From the IMG/VR virus record IMGVR_UViG_3300045135_000538, positions 1-20,837 of that record: a DNA stretch of 20,837 nucleotides, one strand, 5' to 3'. Below are positions 3,241 through 10,168 of this stretch, piece after piece (position 1 is the first letter of the stretch; every line of letters starts with the position of its first letter). Origin of the DNA: a virus. Below the pieces are notes generated by a model. The model ran no database searches. It had not been told where the DNA came from and saw only the letters and a program-made list of their open reading frames with translations. A program made the translations under genes and the position numbers.

Positions 3241-3683
3241 TACTTAGAAGTTCTCTTTTGTGTTGCTGGGTTAGACGCACCGCAAGCTACCATGCCACCC
3301 TTAGCATAGCCCTTCTTAGCCATACCACCCTTTTTGTAGCCCGGCTTCTTCTTAGCCATGCCACCTTTGTTCATTGCCATGCTATCTTCACCACGAGCTT
3401 GTGGTGTACCGTATACGTTATACATTGCTAGTCCCCCTTCTGCAGCACGAAACTTACGAGTCTTCTCTGCAATACCTTCTGGTTGTGATACAAACTGCTT
3501 ACCTTTAGCAGTACCTTCTCGTTTAGCTCTTGTCGTAGCTGCATACTCTGCACTACTCAAAGACTTGATAGCTTTCTCTGGCAAGTAACGCTCACCAGTC
3601 TCACCTGATGGCTTACCTGACTTAGTACGCCACTTCTGCTTTGTCCACTTGTCTAGGGACTCCTGTGAGGCTTTCTTGGCCAT
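3240..3683 (-). CDS. Basic DUF5872-like protein with GGMAKK repeats
   Basis: A 147-residue lysine-rich protein. The N-terminal half (SLDKWTKQKWRTKSGKPSGE, then RYLPEKAIKSLSSAEYAATT) resembles DUF5872, small basic domains seen in phages and large algal viruses. The C-terminal third (about residues 104-130) is a low-complexity run of repeated GGMAKK / GYKKGGMAKKGYAKGGM units. The repeats and charge suggest nucleic-acid or polyanion binding, for example in a packaged internal protein, but that is inference. It starts with a TAATG junction to another DUF5872-like gene upstream. The likely location is cytoplasmic or in the virion, as there is no signal peptide. Confidence 0.65.
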   Translation of the reverse strand: MAKKASQESLDKWTKQKWRTKSGKPSGETGERYLPEKAIKSLSSAEYAATTRAKREGTAKGKQFVSQPEGIAEKTRKFRAAEGGLAMYNVYGTPQARGEDSMAMNKGGMAKKKPGYKKGGMAKKGYAKGGMVACGASNPATQKRTSK

Positions 3684-3874
3684 TAGTCCTTATACCCCCC
3701 ACCCGCAGCTTTATATTCACGGGCTAGCATTTGAGCTTTACGTGCAGACCACTGCCCAGCTTTGCCACCCTTAGTGCCAGCCTTGATCTTCTCAAACAGA
3801 CGCTTACGCATAGCTGGCTTAGTATAGTTACCTGCTTCGTTTACTCTGCTCTTAGTCTTCTTTGCTGCTGGCAT
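3683..3874 (-). CDS. Small basic DUF5872-like protein
   Basis: A 63-residue, strongly basic protein (MPAAKKTKSRVNEAGNYTKP...). The core 'AGTKGGKAGQWSARKAQMLA' ending 'YKAAGGGYKD' is the signature I associate with DUF5872-type small proteins in phages and nucleocytoplasmic large DNA viruses. No enzyme motif is visible; binding to DNA or RNA is plausible from composition. It is directly coupled (TAATG) to the longer DUF5872-like gene downstream, so the two may act together. The start at 3874 has a modest AGGA-type ribosome site about 8 bp upstream. Confidence 0.65.
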   Translation of the reverse strand: MPAAKKTKSRVNEAGNYTKPAMRKRLFEKIKAGTKGGKAGQWSARKAQMLAREYKAAGGGYKD

Positions 3875-4786: not shown

Positions 4787-4970
4787 GGTAATACATCATG
4801 CCTAGCATCATCATGTCTTCATCACGTGCTAGGTTGTCTGTAGTCTTGTTAGTCATACCTTTGTCACCACGAAGGTCTTTGCTACCAAAGCGATCTGTTG
4901 CTTCCTTCTCGAAGACTTTACCTTTGCTAGCAGTACAGCCTTTCTCACGTGGGTCATACAAGTTATTCAT
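4779..4970 (-). CDS. Small hypothetical protein
   Basis: A 63-residue hydrophilic protein (MNNLYDPREKGCTASKGKVF...) ending in a methionine-rich 'DEDMMMLGMMYYRG' tail. No family or motif was recognised. The ATG at 4970 has an AGGAAACGAG ribosome site about 5 bp upstream. It overlaps the preceding gene by 8 bp and the EF-hand gene by 8 bp, so it belongs to the same leftward operon. The coding call rests on this tight packing and the ribosome site. Confidence 0.55.
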   Translation of the reverse strand: MNNLYDPREKGCTASKGKVFEKEATDRFGSKDLRGDKGMTNKTTDNLARDEDMMMLGMMYYRG

Positions 4971-5220
4971 ATTCTCGTTTCCTATCTGGGTCTAGCACTT
5001 CGTGCCTATCTAAGTGACCTTCTAGATACATAGCTCTCTCTACGTGATCTAGAGTATATACCTCACCAGTACGTTGATAGATTGCTTCACGTACGTAGAA
5101 CACATCTGACTTAGGGATGTGTACTTTCTGTATAGCACGGTGATCATTGTTAGCTAATACAGAGTAGAAGTGTTCGATAACATCTTCGTCTGCATATAGT
5201 TGTACTTGTTTTTTAGCCAT
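4963..5220 (-). CDS. First gene of the left arm, unknown function
   Basis: An 85-residue soluble protein, MAKKQVQLYADEDVIEHFYS onward, with an acidic C-terminal end. The frame stays open upstream to 5349, but that extension (cysteine- and leucine-rich) lies over the promoter, so the ATG at 5220 is preferred. It is the promoter-proximal gene of the leftward operon: a sigma70-like promoter lies only about 14 bp upstream, so the transcript would have a leader of roughly 7 bases and no Shine-Dalgarno sequence. The 'YADEDVIEHFYSVLANNDHR' segment hints at a small helical regulator, but no family is recognised. Confidence 0.6.
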   Translation of the reverse strand: MAKKQVQLYADEDVIEHFYSVLANNDHRAIQKVHIPKSDVFYVREAIYQRTGEVYTLDHVERAMYLEGHLDRHEVLDPDRKREYE

Positions 5221-5233
5221 TGTCAAGCTTTTT

Positions 5234-5262
5234 ATTATACACGATGAAAGAAAGTGCCGCAA
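5234..5262 (-). promoter_or_regulatory. Sigma70-like promoter of the left arm
   Basis: On the minus strand, TTGCGG (5262-5257) is separated by exactly 17 bp from a perfect TATAAT (5239-5234). Transcription would begin near 5227, about 7 bp before the ATG at 5220. The consensus -10, ideal spacing and position before the first gene of a 5-kb operon make this a good candidate for a host-polymerase promoter. The -35 matches consensus at four of six positions. Confidence 0.6.
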
Positions 5263-5455
5263 ACTGTATAGGAGATACAGATATGTATGGAGGAGAGGTG
5301 AGAGGAGACACACACACATATAGTCTCGACTACACAGCTTGCGACACATAGATTACGTACCTGCCAACCCAACCAACACAGATACGTAAACTCTAGCTTA
5401 TACTTGCTAGTTACGTATAGTATAGCATGGTAGTAAACATAGTGTCAATACATAA

Positions 5456-5592
5456 AAGTAGTCTAACCTATGTCCAGTAACATAAAAGTCACATCTTAGT
5501 ATAGACTACTTATAGTAGACTACTTTATAGTTGACTTACTTAAGTAGACTACTTTATATAGACTATCTTTAATGTATCAGCATTGTAGTCTA
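5456..5592. repeat. Iteron-like TAGACTACTT array with inverted flanking copies
   Basis: Exact copies of TAGACTACTT begin at 5502, 5516 and 5545; close variants are at 5531 (TTGACTTACTT) and 5559 (TAGACTATCT). Start-to-start spacing is 14, 15, 14 and 14 bp. An exact inverted copy (AAGTAGTCTA) lies at 5456-5465 and a partial one (GTAGTCTA) at 5585-5592, so the direct repeats are bracketed by opposite-facing copies. Regular spacing near one and a half helical turns suggests cooperative binding by a replication initiator or repressor. Confidence 0.7.
5531..5560 (+). promoter_or_regulatory. Weak candidate rightward promoter inside the repeat array
   Basis: TTGACT (5531-5536) is followed after 18 bp by TATATA (5555-5560), a sigma70-like pair overlapping the iteron-like repeats, so a protein bound there could act as a repressor. 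The nearest rightward gene begins at 6700, which would give a leader of over 1 kb. That makes the assignment doubtful. Confidence 0.25.
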
Positions 5593-5711
5593 TCTATACC
5601 CCCTTACCCCCATAGTTATGCATTTTCTGCAAGACCTGTCAAGTCCCTAAATCGTACATCCCTGTAGTTTTTCTTCTAATGTGTGCTATCTTTGCAACAC
5701 TAGTTAGCTAT

Positions 5712-5725
5712 ACTAACATGTTAGT
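5712..5725. repeat. Perfect 14-bp palindrome
   Basis: ACTAACATGTTAGT is its own reverse complement. ACACTA just upstream (5697-5702) and TAGTGT (5723-5728) extend the potential for a larger imperfect hairpin. A dimeric regulator site is the simplest reading. Confidence 0.45.
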
Positions 5726-5801
5726 GTGTCTAGTATTGTATATAGGGTTAACATTGAGAAAAACCCCGTGTGTGTAACTGTACATATACGTATAACGTAT
5801 A

Positions 5802-5835
5802 CCCCCCACGTGGCCCCTGCCTGCCCCCCTACCCC
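5802..5835 (-). other. Minus-strand G-quadruplex motif
   Basis: The plus strand has four C-runs of 6, 4, 6 and 4 bases (5802-5807, 5814-5817, 5824-5829, 5832-5835) with spacers of 6, 6 and 2 bases. The minus strand therefore fits the four-run G-quadruplex pattern with at least four G per run. It includes the palindrome CCACGTGG. In this moderately A/T-rich genome such a cluster is conspicuous. Confidence 0.6.
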
Positions 5836-5887
5836 TGTCATGCTAAGTGTTTGAAAAGAAAAGACTTTCACCCTAGAGGGGCATAAG

Positions 5888-5903
5888 TAAACTATACAGT
5901 TTA
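5888..5903. repeat. Inverted repeat TAAACT-4-AGTTTA
   Basis: TAAACT (5888-5893) and AGTTTA (5898-5903) are separated by ATAC. The same half-site pair recurs at 6048-6070, suggesting a shared binding site. Confidence 0.4.
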
Positions 5904-5923
5904 GCTGCAGAAGCTATGCAATC

Positions 5924-5948
5924 ATGTGTTAAACTACTGAAAACACAT
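5924..5948. repeat. Stem-loop with repeated AAACTACTGA loop
   Basis: ATGTGTT (5924-5930) can pair with AACACAT (5942-5948), leaving an 11-base loop that starts with AAACTACTGA. The same 10-mer recurs 22 bp further on at 5953-5962. Confidence 0.35.
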
Positions 5949-6047
5949 AGAAAAACTACTGATGCCCTATCTGTAGCCACGTAAAAAAGGCATATCCCCG
6001 TGGTTTTGTTACATCATAACACCACACCCTAGACGATGCATGTAATG

Positions 6048-6070
6048 CTAAACTAAACAGTGCAGTTTAG
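6048..6070. repeat. Inverted repeat CTAAACT-9-AGTTTAG
   Basis: CTAAACT (6048-6054) and AGTTTAG (6064-6070) form a 7-bp inverted repeat with a 9-base spacer, sharing half-sites with the inverted repeat at 5888-5903. Single TAAACT copies also occur near 5930 and 6405. Confidence 0.4.
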
Positions 6071-6699
6071 TAGCTTGACTATAGACGCATACACACACAC
6101 GAGACACGATAGCAGAACGAATCAGGAACATCACCACGCCAAGCAAACAGCACAGCAAAAAAGCTAATCAAATCAACGCTCTAAAAGTTTTTTAAAAAAA
6201 TGCTTGCAATACCTGTTTCGATTTGTCAGTCTGTATTCATCGGAAAGCCGAACACCTAGACAAACAGCTAAACACCAAGTCACTGTCTAAACATGACGCA
6301 CCGTGCAAGCCCTAGCACTCAAGAGGGGCATATGAGACTAACTAGACTATCTGACTAAAGGCTTGACACCTGCAAAACTATCTGCAAACGTCTACTGGAA
6401 AGCATACTAAACTAGATAGCTGCGGCGTAGGCAGCACATGGTGGAGATGTATGTGAGGCTCTTTGAATACTACCATGCGGCGTGGACGTGATCCAGCTTG
6501 GGCTTGTGCAGATGCGCTTACCTTGATCTGCCCCCAATATAAAACGAGTAAGACGGGCTAAGTGTAGCAAGGCTAGCCTGTGTCCTGTGGTAGAGCGTTG
6601 CAGAACGTGCAGGGGTGTAGTGTATCTTATGGACACATCTAGTCATTCTGTGGGTTTGATGTGGGTGTGTCTTTATGGTTACACTTGGAGGTGAATATC

Positions 6700-9793: not shown

Positions 9794-9969
9794 TGCCAAG
9801 CTTTGGTAAAGCAAAAAACTTGAAAGCACAATCTAAAATGCATAAGCCTAGTGCTAATAAAAAATGGGTGTATCCTACTAAGTTGAGGGTTGTACCCGCT
9901 TCTATTGCACTCGCATCAACACCTAAATGGTTTGTAACAGCTAACAAAAAGGAGACTACAAATGTCTAA
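9793..9969 (+). CDS. Small basic hypothetical protein (58 residues)
   Basis: The product MPSFGKAKNLKAQSKMHKPS onward is lysine-rich (about a fifth of residues), then 'KKWVYPTKLRVVPASIALAS'. The start overlaps the preceding stop at one base and GGAGATTAAG precedes it. The last eight bases overlap the HTH gene. Charge suggests nucleic-acid contact, but no fold can be named. The coding call is moderate because the gene is short. Confidence 0.45.
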   Translation: MPSFGKAKNLKAQSKMHKPSANKKWVYPTKLRVVPASIALASTPKWFVTANKKETTNV

Positions 9970-10168
9970 CACTATCCAAGCTAAAGTACTGAAGCACTTG
10001 CAGAAGCAAGGCAACATCTCTCCACGTGAGATTTACCTAGACTACCACGCAGGTAGCCCGACTAAGGTTATCTCTCAGCTACGCAAGGCAGGACACAACA
10101 TCGTGTCTATTACCAAGCGTCACCCTACAACAGGTCAACGCTACGTGCGTTACCACATGACAGCGTGA
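9962..10168 (+). CDS. Small helix-turn-helix protein
   Basis: A 68-residue basic protein: 'IQAKVLKHLQKQGNISPREI' followed by 'KVISQLRKAGHNIVSITKRH' and a short strand hairpin. This is a winged-helix pattern like the phage HTH_39-type family, in which the second helix reads DNA. It is a candidate transcription regulator of the phage operon or of host genes. AAGGAGAC precedes the ATG at 9962, and it overlaps the upstream gene by 8 bp. Confidence 0.65.
   Translation: MSNTIQAKVLKHLQKQGNISPREIYLDYHAGSPTKVISQLRKAGHNIVSITKRHPTTGQRYVRYHMTA

Follow-up and report, generated by a model that had tools for sequence, protein, structure and literature searches.

What function is served by a cluster of regularly spaced short repeats that lies between the two divergent gene series of a marine podovirus? 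The cluster occupies positions 5456-5592 of the 20,837-base virus record analysed here (the window, a 20.8-kb fragment), and an initial annotation had offered it as a candidate origin or operator cluster. Only the operator half of that proposal was borne out, as the array is situated between two predicted leftward sigma-70-like promoters and recurs across the group, while an origin gained no positive support.

The repeated word, TAGACTACTT, is present in four exact copies (three direct, one inverted) and three variants, all within 137 bp. Exact plus-strand copies at 5502-5511, 5516-5525 and 5545-5554 are accompanied by two variant direct units, TTGACTTACTT at 5531-5541, which carries a one-base insertion, and TAGACTATCT at 5559-5568, which has two mismatches. 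The five direct units, of which the 5531 unit is degenerate, start at 5502, 5516, 5531, 5545 and 5559 (spacings of 14, 15, 14 and 14 bp) and form a plus-strand core array at 5502-5571, an interval that Tandem Repeats Finder likewise reports as a single array of period 14. On the minus strand, an exact inverted copy lies to the left (5456-5465) and a partial one, TAGACTACAA, with two mismatches, to the right (5583-5592). The direct copies, their spacing, the flanking inverted copies and the location of the whole in a gene-free region between divergent operons are all as the initial annotation had described them. The array cores are near-palindromic, for instance AAGTAG-A-CTACTT at 5542-5554, and the 'direct' and 'inverted' copies therefore overlap on the same sites.

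Four exact copies of any 10-mer, counted on both strands of the 1,440-bp gap, were found in none of 2,000 dinucleotide shuffles; the shuffle maximum was three, reached in 27 of the 2,000. Across the whole window, matches to TAGACTACTT with up to two mismatches are not enriched (41 versus 31.6 expected), but they are clustered locally: a single 200-bp bin contains eight, whereas the mean is 0.39, and the array is the densest cluster of its motif within the window. The same is true of the whole genome of phage CRP-2, where seven copies of its motif share a bin of 200 bp (mean 0.38). Words resembling ACAGCTAACAATG, which are dispersed, are more frequent than expected in the window (25 when up to three mismatches are allowed versus 10.1, a count seen in 0 of 100 shuffles), and an unrelated viral contig (L286, 1971-2076, minus strand) carries a tandem 14-bp array of TAGACTACTGAACG.

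By its gene content, the window phage is one of the HMO-2011-type marine podoviruses, with a related family A DNA polymerase, the helicase, primase and integrase common to these phages, and a divergent late arm. Its closest isolates are the Roseobacter phages CRP-603, CRP-2 and CRP-207; along its full length, the DNA polymerase shares 76%, 75% and 72% identity with theirs, respectively, and 59% with that of HMO-2011. The rightward arm carries the integrase, primase, helicase and polymerase genes. The leftward genes include the small terminase, and because the equivalent arm of CRP-2 holds the terminase, portal, coat and tail genes, the leftward arm is the late arm. The products of its operon are virion and packaging proteins, late being used here for lysis, packaging and virion functions. 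The two series are separated by the gene-free gap at 5221-6660, and the leftward operon begins with a gene for an 85-residue protein with a conserved HIPKSDVFYVREA core (4963-5220, minus strand).

A leftward promoter is predicted on each side of the array. P1 (5615-5642, minus strand) consists of a -35 TTGACA (5642-5637), a 16-bp spacer and a -10 CATAAC (5620-5615), for which relatives have TATAAC, TATAAT or TAAAAC. P2 (5419-5448, minus strand) reads TTGACA-N18-TATACT with a TG before the -10 box, and matches the consensus at 11 of 12 positions. The dyad repeats overlap or flank these promoters, which are assigned purely by consensus match: the left-hand inverted copy ends 7 bp before the -35 box of P2, and the right-hand one falls in what is predicted to be the first part transcribed from P1. 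A further TTGACA directly precedes the start codon of the first late gene (TTGACAATG; 5221-5226, minus strand), an arrangement seen without a Shine-Dalgarno sequence in most lineages, and similar TTGACA boxes are found between late genes in CRP-2.

To what extent is this arrangement shared? Relatives were fetched from IMG/VR through the conserved first leftward gene, giving 80 loci, and 87 upstream regions were reduced to 42 distinguishable lineages for comparison of the arrays. P1 with a 16- or 17-bp spacer was found in 64 of the 87 upstream regions before the CATAAC variant of the window was allowed, and in 75 once it was. None of the relatives compared matches the window's array region at the nucleotide level, whereas P1 has a DNA match in 26 loci and a block at 5755-5835 has one in 57, the window locus being counted in both cases; the word is thus private and the place is shared. 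The 5755-5835 block, which lies to the right of P1 at a variable distance of 60-240 bp, is the most conserved non-coding block of the gap, with the sequence AAAACCCCGTGTGTGTAA...ATATACGTATAACGTA...CCCC.CGTGGCCCCTGCC. Elsewhere in the gap, the non-coding stretch at 6236-6345 is about 80% identical to DNA before the first rightward gene of the cobaviruses SIO1 and ICBM2, which belong to another family, the Zobellviridae; it has weaker matches in two further loci (L080 and L156), and its folding is not strong.

At the same spot, directly downstream of the conserved leftward P1, the 42 lineages carry lineage-specific short repeats at offsets of 12-15 bp, typically AGTTTAACT. Pooling the lineages gives a sharp excess of repeat offsets of 12-15 bp (at 13 bp, 102 pairs versus 4.0 in shuffles) and additional maxima near 27-34, 42-48 and 60-64, although the lineages share ancestry and these counts are inflated rather than independent. 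The best 9-mer, with one mismatch allowed, occurs at six sites in the window, where shuffles yield at most four; several relatives likewise exceed their own shuffles, while others, including CRP-2 and CRP-345, do not. Among isolates, CRP-2, CRP-603, CRP-207, CRP-1, CRP-345 and HMO-2011 all resemble the window in gene order, intergenic position of the repeats and the P1-type promoter, but the repeat word of each differs from that of the window. The conservation in close relatives by which the initial annotation would have judged the array therefore holds for position and geometry, in 42 lineages, and fails for the exact 10-mer. For the distant members CRP-3, CRP-212 and HTVC033P, the end sequence alone was viewed, and statements about the arrays concern the other members.

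Searches of IMG/VR with the word itself point the same way. Two exact 10-mer matches (L004 and L005) were rejected as relatives, being chance matches in coding sequence, and two more (L002 and L003) came from an unrelated phage with a 12-bp tandem of TAGACTACTTGA, in which use of the window word is coincidental or convergent; in that phage the tandem units (177-348 and 3599-3770, respectively) immediately precede a TTGACA-type promoter. Searching with a looser doublet of the word brought up at least 119 matches, and those that were fetched all lacked the late gene, P1 and the 5755 block, so that no relative with the window word was found. An open scan with the loose triple pattern GTTTAACT-N3-6-GTTTAACT-N20-40-GTTTAAC returned 74 matches, 40 of them at 168-306 bp from a first late gene; the matches elsewhere were mostly coding-type repeats.

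The far side of the array has recurring features as well. An equivalent of P2 (TTGACW) is found there in 29 of the 42 lineages, as compared with 6 of 42 after shuffling, and P2 spacers tend to hold a copy of the array word of their own lineage. The mean best 10-mer match of a P2 spacer to its own array is 9.17, versus 8.07 for shuffled spacers (p = 2e-5), 7.97 for leader segments (p = 2e-5) and 8.63 for the match to arrays of other lineages (p = 1.4e-4). In the window, a possible degenerate site, GTAGTAAAC, lies inside the P2 spacer (5430-5438, plus strand) and agrees with GTAGTCTAC at seven of nine positions; taken alone, the match of this spacer is not significant (9 of 10, a value reached by 4 of 30 shuffles).

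Repeats downstream of a promoter might also act in RNA, by forming hairpins in the leader that P1 would transcribe, and the window array does fold better than shuffles on the leftward strand (z = -3.6). Across lineages, however, array folding is symmetric (mean z of -1.7 on the minus and -2.1 on the plus strand), as expected of DNA dyads, whereas a neighbouring leader hairpin is clearly asymmetric. This difference points to a DNA-level function for the array, and an RNA element is accordingly an extremely unlikely explanation of the repeats. The hairpin itself (5250-5352, minus strand; z = -8.4) is predicted in the leftward transcript, with a long stem and a C/U-rich loop (UGUGUCUCCUCU...). 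In the leader, from P2 to the first gene, mean z across lineages is -4.0 for the transcribed strand and -1.8 for its complement. Stem positions that depart from Watson-Crick pairing comprise 44 A/C versus 9 G/T when read on the plus strand, which implies G-U pairs in the leftward RNA. The stem sequence varies between lineages but pairing is kept, and by these measures of folding the leader hairpin of the late transcript is conserved. In several lineages it is followed by a run of U, and the hairpin may therefore be an attenuator; an antitermination site is another possibility. A search of the gap against Rfam, hairpin included, gave no match.

In our view, and with moderate confidence, the observations are best accommodated by a multi-site operator: the array would be recognised by a sequence-specific DNA-binding regulator, encoded by the phage, and the leftward late operon would be under its control. 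In the mechanism envisaged, dimers would bind the near-palindromic cores, AGTAGACTACT here and AGTTTAACT in most relatives, packed 14-15 bp apart, and would cover both the DNA ahead of P2 and the beginning of the stretch transcribed from P1, with one more site between the -35 and -10 boxes of P2 in many lineages. The regulator is probably a repressor: sites inside P2 spacers and in the transcribed region of P1, together with a P2 that is already near consensus, favour repression. In the simplest working version, the bound regulator would occlude P2 and block P1 until its removal or dilution, which would set the timing of late expression or hold the late genes off in a prophage. The window includes an integrase gene, and at least one member of the group, CRP-3, does form lysogens, by integration at a tRNA-Met gene (PMC6918029). 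The divergence of the words is best read as divergence of the regulator's specificity between lineages.

Several other readings have to be set against a repressor-bound operator, and an activator array is the strongest of them. Here, an early phage protein would bind upstream of P2 and switch on late transcription, possibly shutting P1; the array does lie upstream of P2, with the exact inverted copy ending just before the -35 box, and protein p4 of phi29 provides a precedent, with four sites between early and late promoters (PMC3100819). Activation is nevertheless unlikely, as the window P2 is too close to consensus for an activator-dependent promoter, the site inside the P2 spacer of many lineages is in a position for repression, and the two flanking promoters run in the same direction, unlike A2b/A2c versus A3 in phi29. 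It is very unlikely that the sites belong to a host transcription factor. Phages often use host regulators, and the AGTTTAACT form contains TTAA, which we take to be loosely like a CtrA half site. The word of the window, however, is without TTAA, and the array spacing presumably differs from that of CtrA. In addition, the Rhodobacteraceae strain FZCC0023 is host to both CRP-1 and CRP-2, yet their array words differ, which argues for a phage protein and against a host factor. That the repeats are a chance occurrence or a product of local slippage without function would fit the lack of an exact counterpart in relatives, but the shuffling results and the equally placed arrays with other words across the group leave this reading with next to no probability.

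A replication origin, with the repeats as iterons for an initiator protein, is improbable as well. In its favour, the direct repeats are short, they occupy the window's most AT-rich stretch (GC of 0.37 at 5251-5750), and the gap around them is free of genes and separates divergent gene series. Plasmid and phage iterons are similarly short, regularly spaced direct repeats in AT-rich non-coding DNA; the array differs in lying in promoter and leader DNA of the late operon, in having no recognised initiator gene and in its spacing of 14-15 bp. Classic iterons are spaced about 20-22 bp apart. The sharing of the array word with P2 spacers also speaks against an origin, as does the fact that the most conserved block of the gap is elsewhere, at 5755-5835. 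The replication genes seen are those for a primase, a helicase and a family A polymerase, and no initiator family was recognised among the proteins scanned, in a fragment where the primase, polymerase and an HTH_39 protein could be named and many small proteins had no match. GC skew, which the initial annotation had proposed as a check, does not single out the array: the skew turns at about 6.25-6.5 kb, and the cumulative minimum lies at about 6.0-6.5 kb, some 0.8 kb to the right, and is explained by gene orientation.

Operator arrays are a known kind of element, and what is new here is a geometry conserved across a group in which the words are private; the descriptive papers on HMO-2011-type phages that were searched make no mention of promoters or repeats in this region. 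The array resembles the p4/p6 early-late switch of phi29 in that several internally symmetric sites for phage protein are packed between promoters controlling early and late genes (PMC3100819). In phi29, the sites are CTTTTT-N15-AAAATG inverted repeats between divergent promoters (PMC3100819), whereas here the site words are different and dyads of 9-13 bp, set 14-15 bp apart, lie between two promoters that are both leftward. A second likeness is to the operators, or stoperators, of the temperate Cluster A mycobacteriophages, whose word also diverges between related phages and does so together with the regulator, and whose repressor sites are found in promoters and in transcribed DNA (PMC6550527). 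Stoperator sites, 13 bp long and asymmetric, number 20-30 and are scattered across the genome (PMC6550527), as opposed to the near-palindromic sites described here, which are clustered at one locus in the window and in CRP-2.

Which protein might bind the array? The initial annotation had suggested the gene at 9962 (9962-10168, plus strand), which encodes a 68-residue winged-helix protein of the Pfam HTH_39 family (E = 3e-8) and lies upstream of the integrase gene in 34 of 38 relatives. Five near-complete, array-bearing relatives of 48-52 kb lack HTH_39, as do CRP-1, CRP-345 and HMO-2011, which makes it an unlikely general binder, and it was set aside as such; it may act in some members. The HTH_39 gene is also found in cobaviruses, with up to 50% identity, and its presence in both groups suggests that early-region modules have been exchanged between cobaviruses and HMO-2011-type phages. 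The first late protein is universal and its gene adjoins the array region, but as a candidate self-regulator it yielded an AlphaFold model too poor to interpret (pLDDT of 57) and no informative family match. A core-gene comparison of ten genomes did not reveal a recognised universal regulator.

A conserved locus with a lineage-specific word provides a handle on the timing of lysis, or the maintenance of lysogeny, in these phages, and the word allows metagenomic contigs to be sorted by regulatory specificity. The locus also points to a DNA-binding protein and a new leader RNA, both approachable in cultured phage-host pairs. More tentatively, and as a possibility rather than an expectation, late genes may be controlled throughout the HMO-2011-type phages by a fast-diverging operator array between tandem late promoters, an unrecognised phage regulator and a structured leader RNA that gates the operon. 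If so, these phages would fall, by operator word, into regulatory groups that resemble immunity groups.
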